DNA of 64,000 nt, taken from contig MGCS01000011.1 in assembly GCA_001790515.1 (NCBI GenBank), positions 1-64,000 on the forward strand, written 5' to 3'. This document shows positions 27,881-42,153 of the stretch, one piece after another. The stretch's first letter is position 1; the number at the start of each line of letters is the position of its first letter. Under the pieces are notes generated by a model that saw only the letters and a list, made by a program, of their open reading frames with translations, searched no databases and was not told the DNA's origin. Both the position numbers and the translations under genes were made by a program. The stretch comes from Candidatus Saccharibacteria bacterium RIFCSPHIGHO2_12_FULL_44_22 (GTDB lineage Bacteria; Patescibacteriota; Saccharimonadia; Saccharimonadales; Saccharimonadaceae).

Positions 27881-30133
27881 TTGTTGGCGACTATCATTCT
27901 TGCTGTCACTCTATGGGCGCTTGCTACCGACATACATAGTGCAGGCGTTTCGTGGGGGAGTGTCGTTATTGTTGCGGGCCTTTCTACAGCCGTTATCGCT
28001 TGCTCAATCGTGTCCTATTTCTTCATCCCAGAAAAATTCAAAACGATAAGCGCCTACGTATCGTATTTACTCCTCGTCATTACAGCGGGATTGCTAGTTG
28101 TCGGCAGTGGCGCAAACACTTCGCCATTTATTGCGCTATGGATGGTAACAGCGGTGTTTGCCGGTATATTTGGCAGCAAAACAACCCTTCTTTTATTTGC
28201 AGGTGTCAATGCATACTTTTTATGGCAAGTGGTCGGCGGCGAGATCTCCAAAGAAGCAATAGTCAGTATCGTTCTTGCTGGTGAACTACCAATACTTATA
28301 AGCTACATTTTGTGGCACAGTAAATCATCACATAACGAAAGCAGCAAAGACAGGGCATACTACGACCTCGCAAACGAGCTTAATCAAGTATCGAACAAGG
28401 CAGAAGTTGTCATTAACGCTATCGGTGATGGCGTTATTGCAGTTGATAATCAAGGTATGGTTGAACTTATTAATCCCGCAGCACAGCGTATTGTCGGCTG
28501 GGGTCGTCAAGACGCCATTGGACTTGATTACAAGTCCGTCCTACAATTGCTCGGTAAAAACGGTCATGAGCTTGATAAGGCGATCGATCCAATATTTGAC
28601 GTGTTGACCACCAACCAACAAAAACGATCAAACGATTTATTACTCCAGACAAATTCCGGTAAACGCCTCAATGTCTCGATCGTAGCATCACCGATTGGTC
28701 GACTGGGGGCTGGTGCTATTATCGTCTTTCGCGATATCACCAAAGAGCTCGCCGAGGAACACGAACAGGCAGAATTTATAAGTACCGCCAGCCATGAAAT
28801 GCGGACACCGGTTGCATCAATAGAAGGCTATCTTGGACTTGCACTCAATCCAGCAACAGCCACGGTCGACCAAAAAGCACGCGATTTTATTACCAAAGCC
28901 CACGAATCGGCACAACACCTTGGCCGACTATTCCAGGATCTCCTAGATGTCAGCAAGGCTGACGACGGACGTCTATCAAACAATCCAAAAGTTATTAACA
29001 TCGTCAGTTTTACCAACGATATCATCACAGGTCTCATACCAAAAGCTGAAGAAAAAGGGCTACGCATTTTCTTTAAGCCGTCAACGACCACGGGTGGTGA
29101 TGGGTCTGGGGTTAGTTCAATCAGCCCGATGTACTACATTCACCTTGATAGCGACCACCTTCGCGAAGTACTCTCAAATTTAATCGAAAATGCCGTCAAG
29201 TATACACCGAAGGGTGAGGTCGTCGTCGACATCACGGGGGACAATACTCACGTCGTCATCAGCGTGTCGGATAGTGGCATTGGTATCCCGGCTGAAGATA
29301 TTCCTCACTTGTTCCAGAAATTTTACCGAGTAGACAACAGTGACACTCGTGAGATTGGCGGAACAGGGCTTGGTCTTTATCTTTGCAGAAGACTCATCGA
29401 AGCCATGAATGGTCGTATCTGGGTAGAAAGTGAATACAAAAAGGGGAGTACGTTCTTTGTTGAAGTTCCACGAATCACCCACGAAGAGGCGAATCGCCTG
29501 ATCGAATCTTCGATTGAGACGCAAAACACTGAACCCGTCAAGGCCTATGTCCGAGCGGCAGACCTTAGCGCCACACCCGACGAGCAAGCGAGCGCCCTTA
29601 ATACACCACTTATCCTGTCGCATGGTGCTCGGCTTGAAGCGCCAACACTTAAAAAACTACCGGATCAAGATGAAAACGAGTCTACAGACCCGTTAATGGG
29701 CGGCGCTAGCACGCCTCAAGAAGCAGCACCGGCACGCCTCACGGTTCAAGTTGCTTCAATCCCAGCCCCTGCTGCCGTAGCCCCCGCCTCGAGCGTTGCT
29801 CAGCCAGCTATGCAGCAACCTCTCCCTCCCGTTGCATCTGCGCAAAGCATTCAACAACCGCAAGCGACGCCTCCTCTTCAGCCACAAGTCGGTATTCCAG
29901 TAGCACCGCAACAGCAAGTGCCAACACTCACCTCTGCTCCACAACCTACGCCGACCATCCAACAAGCCAATCTCTCGCAACCACAGCAACCTGAATCTAT
30001 CGCTGCTGCTACTCCAGTCAGCACTACCACCGCTCCTTTGCAAGCCATCCAGCAACCACAATCCGCGACTTTTCAAGGAGGAGCGGTGCCTCCAGACTCA
30101 CCACTGCGAATGAATATTCCAGAGCGCAAATAA
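27881..30133 (+). CDS. Membrane sensor histidine kinase (6 TM-PAS-HisKA-HATPase) with Pro/Gln-rich tail
   Basis: About six helices (to residue ~145), a PAS domain (about 175-290: VVINAIGDGVIAVDNQG), HisKA with His305 in STASHEMRTP, and HATPase motifs NLIENAVKY, DSGIGIPAED and GGTGLGLYL. The last ~180 residues are disordered and rich in Pro, Gln and Ala. The start is unclear: TTG 27881 begins inside the first helix, while the frame is open back to 27809 and an ATC at 27824, 8 nt after AGGGGA, would add MKPLTLTSFWHRRISEA, giving the expected basic N-terminus. It probably phosphorylates the regulator at 30191. Confidence 0.9.
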   Translation: MLATIILAVTLWALATDIHSAGVSWGSVVIVAGLSTAVIACSIVSYFFIPEKFKTISAYVSYLLLVITAGLLVVGSGANTSPFIALWMVTAVFAGIFGSKTTLLLFAGVNAYFLWQVVGGEISKEAIVSIVLAGELPILISYILWHSKSSHNESSKDRAYYDLANELNQVSNKAEVVINAIGDGVIAVDNQGMVELINPAAQRIVGWGRQDAIGLDYKSVLQLLGKNGHELDKAIDPIFDVLTTNQQKRSNDLLLQTNSGKRLNVSIVASPIGRLGAGAIIVFRDITKELAEEHEQAEFISTASHEMRTPVASIEGYLGLALNPATATVDQKARDFITKAHESAQHLGRLFQDLLDVSKADDGRLSNNPKVINIVSFTNDIITGLIPKAEEKGLRIFFKPSTTTGGDGSGVSSISPMYYIHLDSDHLREVLSNLIENAVKYTPKGEVVVDITGDNTHVVISVSDSGIGIPAEDIPHLFQKFYRVDNSDTREIGGTGLGLYLCRRLIEAMNGRIWVESEYKKGSTFFVEVPRITHEEANRLIESSIETQNTEPVKAYVRAADLSATPDEQASALNTPLILSHGARLEAPTLKKLPDQDENESTDPLMGGASTPQEAAPARLTVQVASIPAPAAVAPASSVAQPAMQQPLPPVASAQSIQQPQATPPLQPQVGIPVAPQQQVPTLTSAPQPTPTIQQANLSQPQQPESIAAATPVSTTTAPLQAIQQPQSATFQGGAVPPDSPLRMNIPERK

Positions 30134-30190
30134 AAATAACCATGAGAGCTATAGCAATTTCATTTTTTGTTTAGTAGAATAGGGGATAAT

Positions 30191-31021
30191 ATGACAAAAA
30201 TACTATTAGTAGAAGATGACAAGAGTCTAAGAGAAATTTACGGGGTTCGTTTACTTGCAGAAGGATACGATATTGTATCTGCTGGCGACGGCGAAGAAGC
30301 CCTTGCGATGGCAATCAAGGAACGACCACAGCTTATCGTGAGTGACGTTATGATGCCAAAGATTAGCGGCTTCGACATGCTTGATATTCTGCGAAGCACT
30401 ACCGAAACTCGTGAAATCAAAGTAATTATGATGACAGCACTTTCGAGCGATGACCAGCGCGCACGAGGCGAGCAGCTTGGCGCTGATCGCTATCTTGTCA
30501 AATCTCAGGTCGGTATCGAGGACGTCGTACGAACAGTTCATGACGTACTTGGTGACGCCGGTACAACACAAGCACTTACAACGCAGCCCGTCCCAACTTC
30601 TGACCCCACACCTGTAGAGTCAACCAGTCCCGTCGCTCCACCAGAAGAGACATCGCTACCACTACCCACAGCACCCTTTTCATCACCGCGCCCAGCAACA
30701 CTTGGCGAAAGAGTAATTAATCCTATTGAATCTTCGGAATCAACTGTGAGCGCATCAGTAAAGAGTCAGATCGAACAAGAGTTACAAGCACCGGTCGTCC
30801 CTGTTACATCGACACAAGTTGATCAAGCAACTGACGATGCTATGATTGCCGCACAGCTTAGTGTGACACCTCAATCAGCTCCAGCTGAACCTCAACAGCC
30901 CATCAACCCAGTAATGGGCGCACCCTATCCACAACAGCCAGTTACCAGCGACGATGACAATAACGCTACATCTTCTACGCAACCTACAGCCCCTCAACCC
31001 CCTGTTAGTCCATTGAGTTAA
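30191..31021 (+). CDS. Single-domain (REC) response regulator with disordered tail
   Basis: Start at 30191, with AGGGGA 5 nt upstream; 276 residues. A CheY-like receiver occupies 1-120: acidic pocket EDD (8-10), phospho-acceptor Asp52 in LIVSDVMMP, and the Lys in YLVKSQ. There is no DNA-binding domain. The remaining ~150 residues are low-complexity Pro/Ser/Thr/Gln, like the kinase's tail. Output may be by protein contact. It follows the kinase by 57 nt. Confidence 0.9.
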   Translation: MTKILLVEDDKSLREIYGVRLLAEGYDIVSAGDGEEALAMAIKERPQLIVSDVMMPKISGFDMLDILRSTTETREIKVIMMTALSSDDQRARGEQLGADRYLVKSQVGIEDVVRTVHDVLGDAGTTQALTTQPVPTSDPTPVESTSPVAPPEETSLPLPTAPFSSPRPATLGERVINPIESSESTVSASVKSQIEQELQAPVVPVTSTQVDQATDDAMIAAQLSVTPQSAPAEPQQPINPVMGAPYPQQPVTSDDDNNATSSTQPTAPQPPVSPLS

Positions 31022-33836: not shown

Positions 33837-34424
33837 ATGAAGATCATCTTAGCACAAGGAAATCCCGGTAGGGAATACGAGAACACCCGTCACAACGTAG
33901 GGTTTTTAGCGATTGATGAGTTCGCTAATCGGCACGATGCGACATTTCAGTACAAAGACAAATTCAAAGCAGAGATCGCTGAATTAGCCTATGACAACCA
34001 GGAAATACTCCTCGTAAAGCCGACCACCTTTTACAACGAGACTGGACTCAGCGCTCGATCACTTATTGACTTTTACAAAGTAGAGCCAGCTGATGTTTTG
34101 GTGATCCATGACGAACTAGCACTTCCATTTGGCACCATTCGGATACGAGGAAAGGGAAGTGATGCAGGAAATAATGGCATAAAGTCGCTCAATGCACATA
34201 TTGGTCAAGAGTACGTGCGTGTACGTATAGGCATTGCAAACGATATCAGCGAACGTGCTGACGCTATGAATTTTGTACTGGCACGATTCTCGGCGGAAGA
34301 TCACGCCATACTGAAAGACAGGATTTTTCCAAAGATCGCTGAAATCATCCCATCATTTTGTCTGGGCACTATTAATTTCACAAGCTATGTCGCCAGCCAG
34401 AGCATTTCAGATACTGATAGTTAA
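33837..34424 (+). CDS. pth: Peptidyl-tRNA hydrolase
   Basis: 195 residues: GNPGREYENTRHNVGF with the catalytic His, KPTTFYNETG (Asn), VIHDELALPFG (Asp) and GSDAGNNGIKSL. Releases peptides from dropped peptidyl-tRNA. TATAAT ends 10 nt before the ATG. It converges on the desulfurase-like gene with a 4-nt overlap. Confidence 0.96.
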   Translation: MKIILAQGNPGREYENTRHNVGFLAIDEFANRHDATFQYKDKFKAEIAELAYDNQEILLVKPTTFYNETGLSARSLIDFYKVEPADVLVIHDELALPFGTIRIRGKGSDAGNNGIKSLNAHIGQEYVRVRIGIANDISERADAMNFVLARFSAEDHAILKDRIFPKIAEIIPSFCLGTINFTSYVASQSISDTDS

Positions 34425-35500
34425 AGTTCAGCAAGTACGTCAACGAGTCGGTTAATGTCGTCGTCGGTTGTATAAGCGTGCATACTAACGCGCACTACAT
34501 CTCTATCGACAACGTCGCCGTCGACACAATGATCCCCCGCCCGCACGTTGATATGGTGGTCATTTAATATCATGGCAATATCTTGTGATCCATAGCCTTC
34601 AATTTTGAACGAAACGATGCCAACATTTCGACAGCGATAGTCGGAATGCGCCATACCTTTACTGAACGTTACTCTAGCCACCCGATCATTCATTTGTTGC
34701 ACAAGCAGCGATGACTGACGCATGAGCTGAAGATCAATGGCATGAATACCTTGTTTCATAATAATTTTTGCAGCTGCACCCATTGAAACAATCGCCGGTA
34801 TCGGAACGGTATTTGGTTCGATCAGATTGCGATACTCTGAACGAATATCGCGAACATACAGCACACCCGCACCTGCTATACCGCCGATTTTTTGCGATGA
34901 AAAATAAAGCGCGTCACATTCCAGTGACGTCACATCAACGGCCATCCTGCCAATAGCTTGCGATGCGTCCACCACAATAAACGCGTTTGGCCACTTATGC
35001 CTAAGCGAAGTGAGATCATTGTCACTACCATACAGATGATGAACCAAGCTTACGAACATCATCGGAACCTGACCTTTTTTTGCCGCGATGGACGACAGAT
35101 CATACGTACCATCATACCCATAGGTAAGTGGCGTCACATGTCTGGTATCGGCAAATAATCGAATCGTACTCGTATGATCTTCGGGCGAATAGATAAAATC
35201 TTTGTATCTTTTTCCAATAACATCGTAGGTCAGTCGAGCACTATCACTTGCGCTTGTTGTAAAGAATATCTGATCTGCGGTCGCGCCGATTAATGCTGCG
35301 ATTGCCGCACGAGCGTTCGCTACGTCGCTAGTAGCATCAAATGACCAGTCGTAGCTCGCTTTGGCCGCAGCACCAACGTAGGCTGTCATAGCATGCTGCA
35401 CCGCTTGTATCACTGCTTCATGGATAGGAAACGTAGCGGATGCATCCATATGTGCAACCGAGGGATTGTCGCGAAGCACTGGGTACTGCAGCTTATCCAT
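34421..35500 (-). CDS. SufS/CsdA-like class V aminotransferase (putative cysteine desulfurase)
   Basis: Start at 35500 (ATG), overlapping the fusion gene by 8 nt; longer frames run through that gene. 359 residues. PLP Lys in YFSSQKIGGIAGAG (His before Lys, usual in SufS, is Gln). VDASQAIGRM holds the PLP Asp. VRAGDHCVDG matches the loop with the active-site Cys of group II desulfurases. It would draw sulfur from cysteine as a persulfide. No SufE/SufU partner is beside it; the rhodanese domain of the neighbour could accept the sulfur. Some key residues differ, so another PLP reaction is possible. Confidence 0.75.
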   Translation of the reverse strand: MDKLQYPVLRDNPSVAHMDASATFPIHEAVIQAVQHAMTAYVGAAAKASYDWSFDATSDVANARAAIAALIGATADQIFFTTSASDSARLTYDVIGKRYKDFIYSPEDHTSTIRLFADTRHVTPLTYGYDGTYDLSSIAAKKGQVPMMFVSLVHHLYGSDNDLTSLRHKWPNAFIVVDASQAIGRMAVDVTSLECDALYFSSQKIGGIAGAGVLYVRDIRSEYRNLIEPNTVPIPAIVSMGAAAKIIMKQGIHAIDLQLMRQSSLLVQQMNDRVARVTFSKGMAHSDYRCRNVGIVSFKIEGYGSQDIAMILNDHHINVRAGDHCVDGDVVDRDVVRVSMHAYTTDDDINRLVDVLAEL

Positions 35501-36830
35501 CAATATCTCGCTTGCGCACCAACGGTAACCCATTCGTACGCCACGACAATAGTCCGCCCTCCAGCCCGTATGCGTCGTATCCTCGTTGGCGCAATATAGC
35601 TGCCAATATGTCACTCCGTTCGCCAATCGGACATACGAACAATAACGGCACATCACGATCAAATGGCGCACCGAGACTGAGTATTTCTCGTAACATTTCT
35701 TCTGGATAACTGATAGATCCTGGAATATGAAAGTTAGCAAACGGCTTTACGCCACGCGTGTCAATGACTAACGCGCGTGACTGCTCGATCCAATCTTGCG
35801 TTTGCGCGTTGGCCGGTTTACGAAGGGCATCTACGTCAATCGTCGTTAGATCGATTGAATAAAGGTCACTATAGGTATGTGTACCAAACAAATCAGGCTG
35901 CCGCTTCATGATATATGACATATACGGTTCGATTCTGTCACATGCGACAAAAACAAGGGATTGTTTATCGCCATTTTTTCTTGGTACATCATGCGATTGA
36001 AGGTACCGCAAAGATGCGGCAAAATTGGCGCCTGTTGTTGGTCCTGCGAGTATTCCTTCGTTCAGTACTAAATCACGCAGCGCCTCAAGCGCATCGGTTG
36101 ACGTCACCTCAAGAATATCGTTAAAATCATCTTCGTTAAATAACTCCGTTTCGAATAGCTCATTCTTTGTGCGAATGCCCGGCAAAAAATCGCTCGGGTG
36201 CGCTACAACACCAACATGTTTCGCTGCGCTACGATGAGCCTTGGCGTACTCAATCAACCCTCCGCTTGAACCGCCGGTCCCAACGCCCGTAACGACATGG
36301 TCAACGATCGAAAGATCATCATAAATCTCGGCAGCAGTTGTATGTTGGTGAATCAGCGTATTGTCTCTATTTTCATATTGCGATGTATGATGATAGCGAT
36401 CTGGACTAGCAGTAATCATAGCGTTAATCGTTGCAATAGCATTACCGCTGTCGTTTGGATCAGGGCATTCAGATCGTCCGGGTAACGAGACGATTGTCGT
36501 TCCAAAGTAGCGTAACTGCTGTTCAACTTCAGGGACTTTAATACGATTGGTGACACTCGTAAAGGGGACGCCGTGCCTCGCAGCCAGTATCTGCAGCGCC
36601 TTCGCCGTGTTCCCACTTGAACTTTCTATAATGTGCTTGTCGTGAGTCTTTAGGTCATCCATAGAGACATTCGACAATAACCCTACTGCCGTTCGGTCTT
36701 TTATTGATCCAAATGGATTGAGGTATTCTAGTTTGACATATACGTTCGTGTGAACGATCCCATAGCGCTCGGCATCAATCTGCAATAGGGGAGTATGGCC
36801 AATGATTGATTCAATTGATGTGTATATCAT
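35493..36830 (-). CDS. Cysteine synthase/CBS-like PLP enzyme fused to a rhodanese domain
   Basis: 445 residues. Part 1 (about 1-310) is a fold-II PLP enzyme: IGHTPLLQI, PLP Lys in NPFGSIKDRTA, ESSSGNTAKAL, GVGTGGSSGGL (phosphate loop) and GPTTGANFAA. Part 2 (about 340-440) is a rhodanese domain: ALVIDTRGVKPFANFHIPGS and active Cys in FVCPIGERSD. CysK-like enzymes join sulfide or another nucleophile to serine derivatives; SbnA uses the same fold to make diaminopropionate. The fused rhodanese implies persulfide handling in one chain. Overlaps the decarboxylase by 4 nt and the desulfurase by 8 nt. Confidence 0.88.
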   Translation of the reverse strand: MIYTSIESIIGHTPLLQIDAERYGIVHTNVYVKLEYLNPFGSIKDRTAVGLLSNVSMDDLKTHDKHIIESSSGNTAKALQILAARHGVPFTSVTNRIKVPEVEQQLRYFGTTIVSLPGRSECPDPNDSGNAIATINAMITASPDRYHHTSQYENRDNTLIHQHTTAAEIYDDLSIVDHVVTGVGTGGSSGGLIEYAKAHRSAAKHVGVVAHPSDFLPGIRTKNELFETELFNEDDFNDILEVTSTDALEALRDLVLNEGILAGPTTGANFAASLRYLQSHDVPRKNGDKQSLVFVACDRIEPYMSYIMKRQPDLFGTHTYSDLYSIDLTTIDVDALRKPANAQTQDWIEQSRALVIDTRGVKPFANFHIPGSISYPEEMLREILSLGAPFDRDVPLLFVCPIGERSDILAAILRQRGYDAYGLEGGLLSWRTNGLPLVRKRDIDG

Positions 36831-38212
36831 GATTCATACTCCGGTTCATAGATAGTTGTTTTGTGACGATAGACAAGTTTCGTAGGAGACGTATGTCCGA
36901 TTGCGGTCGATGTACTGAAGTGTGATCGATATGCTCCTGTGTGTGTCCACACTAATAAATCTCCGGCCATCGGCATCGTATCAAATACGATATGACGGTA
37001 CGACAGCAGATCGCTTTCTGCGCACAAATGTCCCAGCAACACACATTCAGTTTTTTTGATTTCTTGCGGAGTTCGTTGGATCAACAGAGGATCAGACAGC
37101 ACCTCATTGTTTTCAAAGCATATTTGATTTCTATGAGCATCGACCAGCACAACCTGGTGATCATCAAGCTGTCGCACTTCTATAATCTCAGCAACAACGA
37201 ATCCGGCGTCGTGAAACAGTGACGCACCAGGTTCTATCCATAGTTCTATCAAATTCTCATTCACCATTTCCGCCAGCATATGACCATCGCTATCCGTCGA
37301 TGCAAGTACCGCCCGCAACCGATCAGCACCACTCAGCTCTGCTGGTAACTCGACACCTTGTAATTGAGCTCTTGCATCGAGTCCATACGAAAAACCTTGC
37401 CACGTATGCATGCTTCCACCAGTTTTATGTGCACGCTTTAAGGTATTCTCAAACAGTTGCGCTTGTTCGTATGACAATCCGTAATTTGCTCCATAACCGC
37501 CACCAATATCGAGCACTGTTGCAGACGGAAACTGAGACTGTAAGTCGATCAAACAATCCATTGCTTTTTGTATTGCAGTAACACGTTCGGTGATTGATTG
37601 ACTATCCAGATGAAATGCGATGCCGCGTAATGTTATCTGCGGATGTCTATTTAGTATCGTAAGCGCGTCAGTAAATCCCGCCTGATCCATACCAAATCGA
37701 CTCCGCTTTGTTATCGTCTGATCATTGATCATCGTCCGCGTTAGTCGTAGCAACACTGATACCTCACCAATACAGACGGCAGTCAATCTGTCTAATTCTT
37801 CTGGGCTGTCGACAATGATCGTCGCGCGTTCCTGCACTAAATCGCGCAGGAACGATGTCGTTTTAGGCCCAGTTGCAATGATGTCGCTCGGCTCGAAACC
37901 ACACGCGACCGCATTGCGAAGTTCCCATGAGGATGCAACGTCAACGCCTCCATGACCCAGCAGTGTCGCCACTAAGCTGGGGCTATATGTCGCTTTATGA
38001 GCACCGAACAAACGCATTCGCACATTTAATTCACGGGCAACATCCATAAAATTATCACGATTTTCATGAACCATACTAGGCAACCCAACAGATAGGGGAG
38101 TAGGGTATGTGTCGACTGCGTCAAAAAGGCTGTTTTTGTCGTCTAGCGCTCGTTTCATTTCACTCAAAACCAAAGGGCGATACGTCATACTACCGCTCAT
38201 TGCTAGCTCCAC
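36827..38212 (-). CDS. Fold-III PLP decarboxylase (LysA-like)
   Basis: 461 residues. The alanine-racemase-type barrel shows the PLP Lys in FGAHKATYSPSLV, FHLDSQS, the glycine loop DIGGGYG, IEPGASL and the C-terminal active-site Cys in LGHLCAESDLL. This is the layout of diaminopimelate/ornithine/arginine decarboxylases. No lysine pathway lies nearby, so the substrate is probably a special amino acid made by the neighbouring synthase. It overlaps the ATPase gene by 23 nt; internal ATGs (38194, 38188) are possible starts. SbnH of staphyloferrin B synthesis is a comparable enzyme. Confidence 0.82.
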   Translation of the reverse strand: MELAMSGSMTYRPLVLSEMKRALDDKNSLFDAVDTYPTPLSVGLPSMVHENRDNFMDVARELNVRMRLFGAHKATYSPSLVATLLGHGGVDVASSWELRNAVACGFEPSDIIATGPKTTSFLRDLVQERATIIVDSPEELDRLTAVCIGEVSVLLRLTRTMINDQTITKRSRFGMDQAGFTDALTILNRHPQITLRGIAFHLDSQSITERVTAIQKAMDCLIDLQSQFPSATVLDIGGGYGANYGLSYEQAQLFENTLKRAHKTGGSMHTWQGFSYGLDARAQLQGVELPAELSGADRLRAVLASTDSDGHMLAEMVNENLIELWIEPGASLFHDAGFVVAEIIEVRQLDDHQVVLVDAHRNQICFENNEVLSDPLLIQRTPQEIKKTECVLLGHLCAESDLLSYRHIVFDTMPMAGDLLVWTHTGAYRSHFSTSTAIGHTSPTKLVYRHKTTIYEPEYES

Positions 38213-39158
38213 TACTGCGATATAGCGGATCGATTTGATCCTGCATACCCGAACGATATGATCCGACTACCCAGCTCTCTTGGGATATCTTTCGGTGCAG
38301 ATCAATAATATTTTTGTAGTGAACATCTTCCGACTGCTTTAGTGTCTTAGCCTTGTTGTATAATTTCTTGAACAGTTCCTGGTAGTTACTGGCGACATGT
38401 CCAAGTGATATCTTTTCACCATCAAGCCGAGCATCAACAATCTCATCGCTGACGGGTAATATTCCAAGTAGCAGCTTCGGATCAATGTTGTCTCGTAAAA
38501 AATCTCGCTGCCTATCGGTCGCTACTTGATTTCCGACAACGACCACACGATCACCAATCCCAGCCTTTACGGCCAATTCATAGAATCGCTCAAACACATG
38601 AATACCTTCACGCTCGGGTTTAACAACAAACACCAGCAAATCTTGCATATACAAACTATTACCAAATGCATCATTTCCAGCGACAGAATCAATCACAAGT
38701 AACTGCTGATTCGAAAGTTCAGCATGCGACAGCAGATTTTCGGCAATATACTGAGTACTGTGATGACAATCAATTCCTATCGATTGATCTTTATACGATC
38801 CAACTGTAAAAACATGTCCTTTATCGCCAAACGGCTGACCGTATTTTTTGGTCACATAATTATCGGCGCTTGGTGAAAACATATTAGAGCCTCGCCCAGG
38901 AGGTGTAGAATTGAGAAATTCATCTTCGAAGATTGCATCCCTCGATCCGATAAGATGCCGACGAATATCATTCGATACACTATCCTGAGATAGATCATAC
39001 TGGCCGTCTGACGTAATACCTAACACTTCCGCCGTATGACTGTTGACATCAACATCTAATAATCCGACCGTCATACCAAGACTATCCATATAAAGGGAAA
39101 ATAATGCGGAGACAGTCGTCTTGCCACTGCCACCTTTTCCAACAAATGCTATTCTCAT
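38190..39158 (-). CDS. CooC/MinD-like deviant-Walker ATPase
   Basis: Start at 39158, which begins MRIAFVGKGGSGKTTVSAL directly with the P-loop; longer frames add an unlikely Cys-rich lead. 322 residues. Deviant Walker A GKGGSGKTT, then GLLDVDVNSHTAEVLGI, and LLVIDSVAGNDAFG as switch II/Walker B. This subfamily includes CooC, which inserts nickel into carbon monoxide dehydrogenase, and MinD/Mrp-type proteins. No CxxC pair of CooC is obvious. First gene of the operon, about 30 nt from the Fur box, so a metal or cofactor-loading role is inferred. Confidence 0.82.
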   Translation of the reverse strand: MRIAFVGKGGSGKTTVSALFSLYMDSLGMTVGLLDVDVNSHTAEVLGITSDGQYDLSQDSVSNDIRRHLIGSRDAIFEDEFLNSTPPGRGSNMFSPSADNYVTKKYGQPFGDKGHVFTVGSYKDQSIGIDCHHSTQYIAENLLSHAELSNQQLLVIDSVAGNDAFGNSLYMQDLLVFVVKPEREGIHVFERFYELAVKAGIGDRVVVVGNQVATDRQRDFLRDNIDPKLLLGILPVSDEIVDARLDGEKISLGHVASNYQELFKKLYNKAKTLKQSEDVHYKNIIDLHRKISQESWVVGSYRSGMQDQIDPLYRSSGASNER

Positions 39159-39188
39159 ATATAGTAAGTATCGCAGCCCGATTTTCTT

Positions 39189-39207
39189 ATTGCAAATTTG
39201 TTGCAAT
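39189..39207. promoter_or_regulatory. Fur-family box (19 bp, palindromic)
   Basis: ATTGCAAATTTGTTGCAAT: perfect 7-bp arms ATTGCAA/TTGCAAT with a 5-nt centre, between the divergent ATPase operon and the Fur-family gene. Its left arm holds TTGCAA, usable as the -35 of the Fur promoter whose -10 TATACT is at 39215-39220. Bases 39193-39208 recur exactly upstream of the ZIP gene. Confidence 0.75.
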
Positions 39208-39226
39208 AATATGCTATACTGCACAT

Positions 39227-39643
39227 ATGCACAATGAACTCGAGACCGTTTTTGCCAAAGAAGGTTATCGCTTAACCTCACCTAGAAGGGCAGTGTTCGA
39301 TGTACTTCATGGCAGCGAATCGCCGCTTGCAATCGCAGTGATCATAAAAGCATGTCCAGATGTCGATCGCGTAAGCATCTACAGGACTCTCGAACTGTTC
39401 ACGCGTCTAGGAATCACAGAGATTATTCCATTCGGCTGGAAACAGCGCTACGAATTAACGAGCCCCTTTAAACCACACCATCACCACCTTTATTGTACGA
39501 ACTGTGGGGTACTTATCGATATACATTCTCAAAAACTTGAACAAGTTGTCGCAGCCATTGCCCGAGAGCAAGATTTTCAGCCAGCTGCACACAAATTCGA
39601 GATTACTGGTTTGTGCCGTCATTGCCAAGCAAACATTCAGTAG
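39227..39643 (+). CDS. Fur-family metalloregulator (Zur-like candidate)
   Basis: Start at 39227; TATACT ends 6 nt before it. 138 residues: winged helix (YRLTSPRRAVFDVLHGS, VDRVSIYRTLELFTRLGI) and a C-terminal metal/dimer domain with PHHHHLYCTNCG and GLCRHCQ, i.e. a structural Cys4 zinc site and regulatory histidines. It likely represses its own gene, the divergent PLP operon and the ZIP gene through the shared box. Neighbouring zinc-type transporter favours Zur, but iron or manganese cannot be excluded. Confidence 0.9.
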   Translation: MHNELETVFAKEGYRLTSPRRAVFDVLHGSESPLAIAVIIKACPDVDRVSIYRTLELFTRLGITEIIPFGWKQRYELTSPFKPHHHHLYCTNCGVLIDIHSQKLEQVVAAIAREQDFQPAAHKFEITGLCRHCQANIQ

Positions 39644-39649
39644 CAACCA

Positions 39650-40501
39650 CTAATGTGCGTGATCTTCGTCACCATGATCCTCGTGATGATCAGTTGAATG
39701 AGCCTCCTCTAAGTGACTATCGTGAGTATCATGGCCTTCATGGCCATGCAAACCAGTACTATGTAGCAACGTGACCAATCCACCAACAAAGATGATTCCA
39801 ATTACCAACATAATTGCCTGAATCGTTCCCTGCTTTTGTGGTTGTTCATGAATATCTGGGATAATGTCGCTTGCTGCAATATAGATAAAGAACCCAGCAG
39901 TCATCGCCAGAAGCGGTGCAACCTGCAGATGGCTATCCGACCCAAGTAGATACACCGTTACTGCAGCGACAAGTGTCGCGATCGCCGTAGCAACATTCGC
40001 GAGCAGCACTTTTTTGTCCTTCCAGCCACGAGACAACAGTAGCGCAAATGTACCAAGTTCTTTTGGTATTTCGTGCGCACTAACGGCTAGCGTAGTAATA
40101 ATACCCGTCACTGGACTCACGATAAATGCTGCGCCAATCGCGATGCCATCGATAGCATTATGTATCATGTCACCAAATATAATCAGACGACGTTGACTGA
40201 CGTGTGCCACCGAGCTATCGTGCTCGTGATGGTGATGAAACCAGCCGGCAAACCTTTCTAATAGGAAAAACAGCAAGAACCCACCGAGCGTCCATAGCAA
40301 CAACGTTTGCGGGTCGCCCATCTCGAATGATTCCGGCAACAAATCAAAGAATGCTGCCGCTAGCAACGCTCCCGCGCCAAACGGCATTGCAATTAATATT
40401 GCCCGGGATCGACGCTTTTTTGTCGTGAAGAGTAGTGCGCCGCCAGCAAGCGATATGCTGCTGCCGATTATAATTGCCAAAATAAGGTAGATGAGATCCA
40501 T
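39650..40501 (-). CDS. ZIP-family divalent metal transporter
   Basis: 283 residues with eight helices. HNAIDGIAIGAAF (helix 4) and SAHEIPKELGTF (helix 5) are the metal-binding signatures of the ZIP family. His-rich loops HHHHEHD (after helix 3) and the C-terminal tail with many HxxH/DHxxH units bind metal. ZIP proteins bring Zn, Fe or Mn into the cytoplasm. It ends 6 nt from the Fur gene (convergent) and carries the same box in its promoter. Confidence 0.93.
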   Translation of the reverse strand: MDLIYLILAIIIGSSISLAGGALLFTTKKRRSRAILIAMPFGAGALLAAAFFDLLPESFEMGDPQTLLLWTLGGFLLFFLLERFAGWFHHHHEHDSSVAHVSQRRLIIFGDMIHNAIDGIAIGAAFIVSPVTGIITTLAVSAHEIPKELGTFALLLSRGWKDKKVLLANVATAIATLVAAVTVYLLGSDSHLQVAPLLAMTAGFFIYIAASDIIPDIHEQPQKQGTIQAIMLVIGIIFVGGLVTLLHSTGLHGHEGHDTHDSHLEEAHSTDHHEDHGDEDHAH

Positions 40502-40543
40502 TGCATGCTTTCTGTTTAGATTATTTATAGAGTAACGTCATGA

Positions 40544-40589
40544 TGTCAATGAGACAAATTTGTTGCAATAGCATTCTTGTTTGCAACAA
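40544..40589 (-). promoter_or_regulatory. ZIP promoter with Fur-type boxes
   Basis: On the minus strand TTGACA (40544-40549) is a good -35, with an A/T-rich -10 (TAAATA) at usual distance. Directly upstream lies CAAATTTGTTGCAATA (40555-40570), identical to 16 bp of the Fur box at 39193-39208, and TGTTGCAA...TTGCAACA (40561-40587) forms a second 8-bp inverted pair. Confidence 0.7.
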
Positions 40590-41109: not shown

Positions 41110-42153
41110 TTATTTATCAATCGTTGTTTTAGCAAGTCGGCGTTTTTCAATGACGCTTGATATAATAGCCGTCACAATAAAGACCAGCCCAAGTGAGCCC
41201 GTTACCCATTCCGGTGGAGAAACGTGGTACAACTTTACCAACATGACACAGCCAAGCGCAAGGATTGCCCAGTGAGCACCATGCTCTAAATACCGATACT
41301 TCGCAAGCGTTCCTGCACGCATCAGATAAACAGTCAGTGATCGCACCCAGAATGCACCCACGCCGAGTCCCGCTACAATCAGTACGATATTTGTCGTTAT
41401 GGCGAACGCCCCGATAACACCGTCAAAACTAAATGATGCATCTAGCACTTCGAGGTACATAAATGATGCAAACGCTGCCCAACCCACCTGGTGTGTCGTA
41501 CCGCTCGTCTTCATCTTTTTATCAAACAATGTCGCCAGTGTCGACAGCCCAAACTGCAATGTAATACCTAGCAAACTAGAAATAAGAACCGTTTCTTTCA
41601 ACTTGTCTTCCACTGTAAAGTACAGAAGTGCCGCAACAAGCCCCATAACAATCAATTTGATAAAACGAATTTTTCCAGCGGCCGCAAGCACGCGTTCGAT
41701 AGGTCGCAGCCAGTGCACGATCTTGTCATGATCAAGGAAATAACTAATTCCTAGCATCAGCAGGAATGTACCACCAAATGCGTCTATAACGGGCGCTGCC
41801 TTGTACAACTCTTCGCCGTAGCGATCTGCGTCGTTCAATGCCAGATCGGTCACACTGCCAAACCCAAGCCCAGTCGCAGCCATTACAACAAATATCGGCA
41901 ACGCAAATCGCACGACAAATACCGCGATAAATATACCGATCGTTAGGAATAATGTTTGCCACAACGGGCTCATTCGTACCAGTATTCGGCTATTGATAAC
42001 CGCATTATCAAAACTAAATGTGACTTCCATGATGGCAAGGACAGTAAATAGCCATAGCGCCGCCAAACCCAGTTCGTAACCAACAAATGCTCCGATAAGT
42101 AGAGTAATAATTCCAGAAATAGCGAAGATTCGTAAGGGATGGGCTTTGTGCAT
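41110..42153 (-). CDS. DUF475/TerC-like membrane protein
   Basis: 347 residues, about nine helices. FSFDNAVINSRIL and DASFSFDGVIGAFA are the paired FxFDNA/FSFDG motifs of the TerC/DUF475 group, whose acidic residues in the membrane probably bind metal (Mn or Ca). TerC-type proteins are tied to tellurite resistance and manganese loading of exported enzymes. TACAAT (minus strand, 42062-42067 counted from the gene's 5' side as 42162-42167) lies 8 nt before the ATG, a leaderless spacing. Confidence 0.88.
   Translation of the reverse strand: MHKAHPLRIFAISGIITLLIGAFVGYELGLAALWLFTVLAIMEVTFSFDNAVINSRILVRMSPLWQTLFLTIGIFIAVFVVRFALPIFVVMAATGLGFGSVTDLALNDADRYGEELYKAAPVIDAFGGTFLLMLGISYFLDHDKIVHWLRPIERVLAAAGKIRFIKLIVMGLVAALLYFTVEDKLKETVLISSLLGITLQFGLSTLATLFDKKMKTSGTTHQVGWAAFASFMYLEVLDASFSFDGVIGAFAITTNIVLIVAGLGVGAFWVRSLTVYLMRAGTLAKYRYLEHGAHWAILALGCVMLVKLYHVSPPEWVTGSLGLVFIVTAIISSVIEKRRLAKTTIDK

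Follow-up and report, generated by a model that had tools for sequence, protein, structure and literature searches.

A conserved operon of a CooC-like ATPase and pyridoxal-phosphate enzymes in Saccharibacteria, predicted to respond to zinc starvation

Introduction

The nickel ATPases CooC and ATPase-type HypB carry a deviant Walker A motif, KGGxGK[ST], and a two-residue metal motif. The Zur-regulated GTPases of the COG0523 family (YciC, ZigA, MRF) are also P-loop NTPases, and the comparative study of that family uses CooC only as an outgroup (PMC2770081). Zur further controls biosynthetic enzymes for metallophores (PMC6103462). In Streptomyces, the Nur box has the consensus tTGCaa-N5-ttGCAA (PMC3919588). 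Here we describe a four-gene operon and its operator from Candidatus Saccharibacteria bacterium RIFCSPHIGHO2_12_FULL_44_22, found in positions 1 to 64,000 of contig MGCS01000011.1 (assembly GCA_001790515.1); this whole stretch of 64,000 nucleotides is called the window below. The genome to which the window belongs measures 1.23 Mb and is 99% complete. Saccharibacteria live as epibionts on other bacteria and have strongly reduced genomes.

Results

The operon and its operator

Four minus-strand genes overlap by exactly 23, 4 and 8 nt and face a Fur-family gene, an arrangement that an original prediction, made from the letters of the window, had described and that the coordinates confirm. The leading gene (38190..39158) encodes a CooC-like ATPase of the MinD/ParA family, 322 residues long (Pfam CbiA/ParA), for which CooC (PDB 3KJE) is the best match by both sequence and fold. 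It is followed by three genes for enzymes dependent on pyridoxal phosphate (PLP), referred to here as the trio: an alanine-racemase-fold decarboxylase with a GTG start (36827..38212; Pfam Orn_Arg_deC_N), sharing the fold of diaminopimelate decarboxylase (DAPDC), DokD, BtrK and SbnH; a CysK/SbnA-like beta-replacement enzyme fused to a rhodanese domain (35493..36830; Pfam PALP and Rhodanese, and an alignment of 14 homologues); and a class V enzyme of 359 residues that resembles SufS-type cysteine desulfurases (34421..35500; Pfam Aminotran_5 and alignment), whose start is taken as the ATG at 35500 with the backing of sister genomes. Divergent from the ATPase gene, on the plus strand, is the gene for a Fur-family repressor, predicted to be of the Zur type (39227..39643; Pfam FUR and alignments). 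Its HHHH element, C4 site, E105 and H122 are kept in the neighbors, and the loop near the N terminus that bears His in classical Fur is shorter. A minus-strand gene for a ZIP-family metal importer (39650..40501; Pfam Zip) is convergent with it.

The predicted Zur-type operator (39187..39209) separates the ATPase gene from the divergent Fur gene; it is a 23-bp inverted repeat, TTATTGCAA-ATTTG-TTGCAATAA, with perfect 9-bp arms, an asymmetric 5-bp centre and the core TTGCAA-N5-TTGCAA. The perfect 19-bp palindrome proposed originally is not there as such; what stands is the inverted repeat, in this corrected form. The 16 bp said to recur before the ZIP gene do recur exactly, the 16-mer CAAATTTGTTGCAATA being found both at 39193 and, 54 bp upstream of the start of ZIP, at 40555, but the ZIP-side copy, a predicted partial second operator (40555..40570), contains one TTGCAA half-site only.

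The palindrome had been expected to be conserved in relatives, and the box is. Its exact core occurs nine times in 12 related genomes that bear the ATPase gene (about 11 Mb), in seven of the nine cases directly before that gene, while a reversed control pattern occurs once in the same 12 genomes. At 32 of the 41 related ATPase loci, the promoter contains the shorter box TGCAA-N5-TTGCA with at most one mismatch, against 17 of 820 random windows; the promoter is that of the ATPase gene or, if Fur heads the operon, of the Fur gene, and the 41 loci, being related, do not represent 41 independent events. Most of these loci are from Patescibacteria, and the set as a whole covers several classes. Within the window, a two-mismatch pattern finds six sites with 5.7 expected, no excess over chance, so weight is given only to the exact site and to its conservation. 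A one-mismatch scan of five genomes yields mostly intragenic chance sites apart from the ATPase promoters, and we therefore claim no further regulon members in the window genome. On a Paceibacterota contig, a radical S-adenosylmethionine gene (L096:9009-10667; L and G numbers are our handles) has TGCAA-N5-TTGCA boxes at both ends and is a candidate member of the regulon there.

Distribution and gene neighborhoods

A single-protein query of genome contigs gave no matches; an alignment-based search succeeded and was used for the wider scan of contigs, with one genome per species. The order ATPase-decarboxylase-CysK/rhodanese-desulfurase is kept in sister genera (G004, G031, G087, G047), with Fur divergent in three of these four and placed at the other end, beside ZIP, in G047. 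G013 has a reduced form, Fur|ATPase-CysK/rhodanese, and G069 carries the operon on a contig end. The decarboxylase gene of G069 (L025:520-1934) is split into two frames, as is a CysK-rhodanese gene in G430 (L145:750-2239), through decay or assembly error. The full gene set also occurs in Ca. Spechtbacteria (L033) and on a contig filed as Lithacetigena (L035), full or near-full versions occur in Micavibrio and Rhodospirillaceae records (L040, L044, L046), and the reduced form is found in many Patescibacteria. Distribution of the ATPase is patchy; at class level 20 of 393 genomes encode it, and at phylum level 10 of 380.

A Fur gene is adjacent in 34 of the 41 related ATPase loci, and ZIP is a recurring neighbor (L024, L142, L149, L151, L152, L177). 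Conservation of the operon together with its operator is virtually certain. The comparison supports the original proposal of a small conserved regulon under a Fur-family protein, serving in metal shortage and combining a CooC-type ATPase with PLP/sulfur enzymes, and it contradicts the possibility, raised with that proposal, that the genes lie mostly apart in relatives and never near metal genes. The statement that no described system with this gene set was known also holds up: targeted literature searches, which left subscription journals largely uncovered, found no description of the set or of a CooC-like ATPase under Zur.

Elsewhere, the Fur|ATPase pair is followed on its 3' side by other cassettes: a short-chain dehydrogenase/reductase-like protein, in some cases with COG0523; two class I aminotransferases and ZIP; ornithine cyclodeaminase and COG0523; a PvcA-like isonitrile synthase; unknown proteins; or nothing. 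Fur and the ATPase are the core of the system, and the PLP cassette is one of several downstream alternatives. Several of the exchangeable cassettes consist of amino-acid or natural-product enzymes. We take the cassettes to be different ways of making a metal ligand that works with one and the same ATPase; they might instead be zinc-starvation genes in their own right, with the ATPase acting by itself.

Several neighbors deserve mention in their own right. The PvcA/DIT1-like isonitrile synthase gene (L141:5771-7153, from Saccharibacterium G023) lies directly 3' of a box-controlled ATPase gene, raising the possibility of a zinc-linked isonitrile in Patescibacteria. YibE/F-family membrane proteins adjoin the Fur-ATPase pair in L096, L141, L178 and L179, which suggests a zinc link for that family. 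A DUF475/TerC-family membrane protein, encoded at 41110-42153 in the window, repeatedly adjoins Fur, ATPase or ZIP genes (L022, L039, L148, L150, L151). Contig L039, filed as Chloroflexi bacterium PMG_070, has Saccharibacteria-like content (DprA, Pth and DUF475 neighbors) and is probably a binning error.

Evidence for zinc

The original prediction had left the metal open, zinc or iron, under Fur or Zur. Zinc, sensed by a Zur-type regulator, is the most likely metal, and not iron. In G023, the exact box precedes a ZnuA-ABC-permease set (znuABC) and a second fur gene. COG0523 genes lie nearby in L039, L045 and L153, and ZrgA in L049. The alphaproteobacterial versions of the operon in L040 and L044 are preceded by GTTATAATATAAC and GTTACATTATAAC, exact matches to GTTA-N5-TAAC, the proteobacterial Zur motif (PMC4176598). 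Among actinobacterial homologs of the ATPase, 32 of 58 promoters hold a Zur-like box, defined as at most five mismatches to TGAAAATGATTTTCA, compared with 15 of 580 control windows; PMC5472717 describes the Zur motif of Streptomyces. In Streptomyces sp. NBC_01237, a decarboxylase-CysK/rhodanese-SufS trio with a Zur-like box 67 bp upstream stands beside S14, a COG0523/MRF GTPase and a His-rich protein, in an island of zinc-starvation type that also holds L28, L33 and L31 paralogs, identified by eye. Taken from this comparative evidence, control of the operon by zinc through Zur is predicted with high probability.

The ATPase

CooC (3KJE) is the closest solved relative of the ATPase by profile search (E 5e-22). 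The structure model (predicted local distance difference test, pLDDT, 91) matches CooC with a template modeling (TM) score of 0.62 by query and 0.75 by target; ParA-type proteins and ATPase-type HypB come next. The ATPase has the MinD-class fold and the Walker A motif KGGxGKT, and its two-residue metal motif lines up with that of CooC and ATPase-type HypB. The CYC of CooC, however, aligns with C-[HY]-H (CHH in the window copy), whose C and H do not vary among about 85 homologs, so that CxH stands where CooC has CxC. The protein also has a conserved TPPGxGS motif and a conserved C-terminal extension of about 70 residues ending in QID; unlike CooC, it has no carbon monoxide dehydrogenase (CODH) client and has a zinc-type switch. 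It would work like a metallochaperone ATPase and is not a member of CooC proper; it is probably a zinc metallochaperone. With the Zur-regulated COG0523 GTPases it shares the P-loop NTPase character, an induction by zinc shortage that is predicted here, and zinc uptake genes nearby, and a COG0523 gene is itself found beside some members of the system, but the ATPase belongs to the MinD/CooC class and not to the G3E GTPases.

Sulfur chemistry of the PLP trio

In the CysK-like fusion protein, Lys44 and the rhodanese Cys400 are invariant in 14 homologs; catalytic Lys73 and Cys397 of the decarboxylase are conserved in the alignment, and Lys213 and Cys334 of the desulfurase (numbered from 35527) are invariant. 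The desulfurase scores 120.6 against the curated SufS model, far below its cut-off of 475, and it is IscS-type in the alphaproteobacterial operon and SufS-type in the others. That two subfamilies were recruited independently suggests a need for the desulfurase reaction as such, in keeping with transfer of sulfur to the fused rhodanese. Each of five genomes encodes another class V PLP enzyme elsewhere, and the SufBD core (PF01458) was found in none of the five and in all 14 controls; the operon desulfurase therefore appears to be a specialized extra. The decarboxylase is about as similar to DAPDC as to BtrK or SbnH, and its model (mean pLDDT 73) is too weak to support a choice of substrate. Stripping sulfur from cysteine in order to form cysteine again would serve no purpose, so the sulfur probably goes to a different activated amino acid. 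A methyltransferase gene adjoins the trio in five actinobacteria (the domain was identified in L184, and the rest are homologs), which supports small-molecule biosynthesis. We regard it as possible, at slightly short of an even chance, that the trio makes a sulfur-bearing small ligand. Trio and methyltransferase form a compact cluster in Streptomyces and Kitasatospora (L183, L184, L197, L198, L199), usually without visible zinc context, and the plasmid records that hold the actinobacterial trio bear no annotation.

The same enzymes could instead form a sulfur relay devoted to macromolecules, sulfurating protein or RNA (Fe-S assembly or thiolation) under zinc scarcity, with no free ligand. A desulfurase and a rhodanese are the usual relay pair, and the second class V enzyme elsewhere would leave the operon copy free to specialize; but no macromolecular relay needs a rhodanese fused to a beta-replacement enzyme and linked to a decarboxylase, and with the SufBD core absent and a methyltransferase joining the actinobacterial trio, we consider this reading unlikely. 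Zinc-sparing metabolism, in which the PLP enzymes would substitute for zinc-dependent cysteine or polyamine steps and make no ligand, is a little less probable again. Zinc-free substitutes are common in Zur regulons (PMC2770081), and one Streptomyces trio adjoins ribosomal protein paralogs of the zinc-free type. Against this, the CysK-like and LysA-like enzymes are single-copy in the genome, both in the operon, so there is no visible counterpart for them to replace, and if the product were cysteine, nothing would be gained by supplying a cysteine synthase from a desulfurase.

Nickel and iron

Nickel has to be considered because the operator core is identical to the Streptomyces Nur consensus: the Fur protein might be Nur-like and the CooC-like ATPase might load nickel, and two nickel ATPases, CooC1 and ATPase-type HypB, are indeed among the closest structures of the ATPase. 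Context sets this aside as improbable. CODH (PF03063) was found in none of five genomes and in all five control genomes, and NiFe hydrogenase is absent from the five, in a search that did not extend to nickel superoxide dismutase or urease. The box stands before znuABC in G023, the neighbors are ZIP, ZrgA and COG0523, homologous operons bear Zur boxes and not Nur boxes, and the CxC of CooC is replaced by CxH.

A link to SbnA and SbnH, suggested in the original prediction, survives at the level of fold (a CysK-like enzyme with a DAPDC-fold decarboxylase), and the top PDB sequence matches of the Fur protein are iron Furs, but a staphyloferrin B-like siderophore pathway under an iron-sensing Fur is very improbable, given 155 bits against the SbnA cut-off of 350, a decarboxylase about as much like DAPDC and BtrK as like SbnH, an operon without SbnB (ornithine cyclodeaminase), SbnC/E/F, nonribosomal-peptide-synthetase-independent siderophore synthetase or siderophore transporter and with a rhodanese fusion and a desulfurase, and neighbors and boxes of the zinc type. 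Membership tests likewise led us to reject the SUF Fe-S assembly reading, its SufB/SufD core being absent, and a CODH-maturation reading.

Apart from these genes, the window encodes at 27881-31021 a sensor kinase and a response regulator with long Pro/Gln-rich C-terminal tails, and related genes occupy the same place in sister genomes.

Discussion

The anatomy of the locus and its conservation suggest the following mechanism. When zinc is present, the Zur-type repressor would bind TTGCAA-N5-TTGCAA and block the divergent promoters; when zinc is scarce, the operon would be derepressed. The desulfurase would then draw sulfur from cysteine and form a persulfide on the rhodanese domain, from which the fused CysK-like domain would add sulfur, by beta-replacement, to an activated amino acid other than that leading to ordinary cysteine. 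Removal of a carboxylate by the decarboxylase would give a small thiol/amine ligand for zinc. The CooC-like ATPase, through its CxH motif, may spend ATP to load, move or release zinc on this ligand or on client proteins, alongside uptake by ZIP. We regard the chances as evenly balanced for this reading as a whole, that of a zinc-starvation operon making a sulfur-bearing ligand that is handled by an ATP-driven metallochaperone.

Several observations weigh against it. The product, the substrate and the zinc binding of the operon proteins are all inferred, and the operon encodes neither an exporter of its own nor a system for taking up the ligand. At many loci the decarboxylase and desulfurase are missing or the cassette is an unrelated one, and some Patescibacteria loci have no recognizable box. 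At four of the five actinobacterial trio loci, the 16-25 kb examined contain neither a Zur-like box nor a known zinc gene, so that control of the trio by Zur is not evident everywhere.

The clusters for ethylenediamine disuccinate (EDDS), coelibactin and pseudopaline likewise place biosynthetic enzymes under Zur, and EDDS biosynthesis also uses a CysK-like enzyme. The operon described here has no nonribosomal peptide synthetase, opine dehydrogenase or exporter gene, and sulfur supply by a desulfurase and a rhodanese is new with respect to them. Tentatively, we propose a new bacterial zinc-handling pathway in which an ATP-driven CooC-class zinc metallochaperone works with a purpose-made sulfur ligand or cofactor, the product of the trio, under a Zur switch, with exchangeable cassettes (PvcA-like isonitrile synthase, ornithine cyclodeaminase), common to Patescibacteria, Micavibrio-like bacteria and some actinomycetes.

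An unknown sulfur-containing metabolite is predicted. If the proposal is true, CooC-class ATPases would gain a role outside nickel enzymes, matching that of the Zur-regulated COG0523 GTPases. With the operator consensus for Patescibacteria, zinc regulons can be mapped in uncultured genomes. Some Saccharibacteria, for all the reduction of their genomes, would then have retained a metal-switched biosynthetic operon, and this would offer a first handle on the zinc supply of an epibiont.

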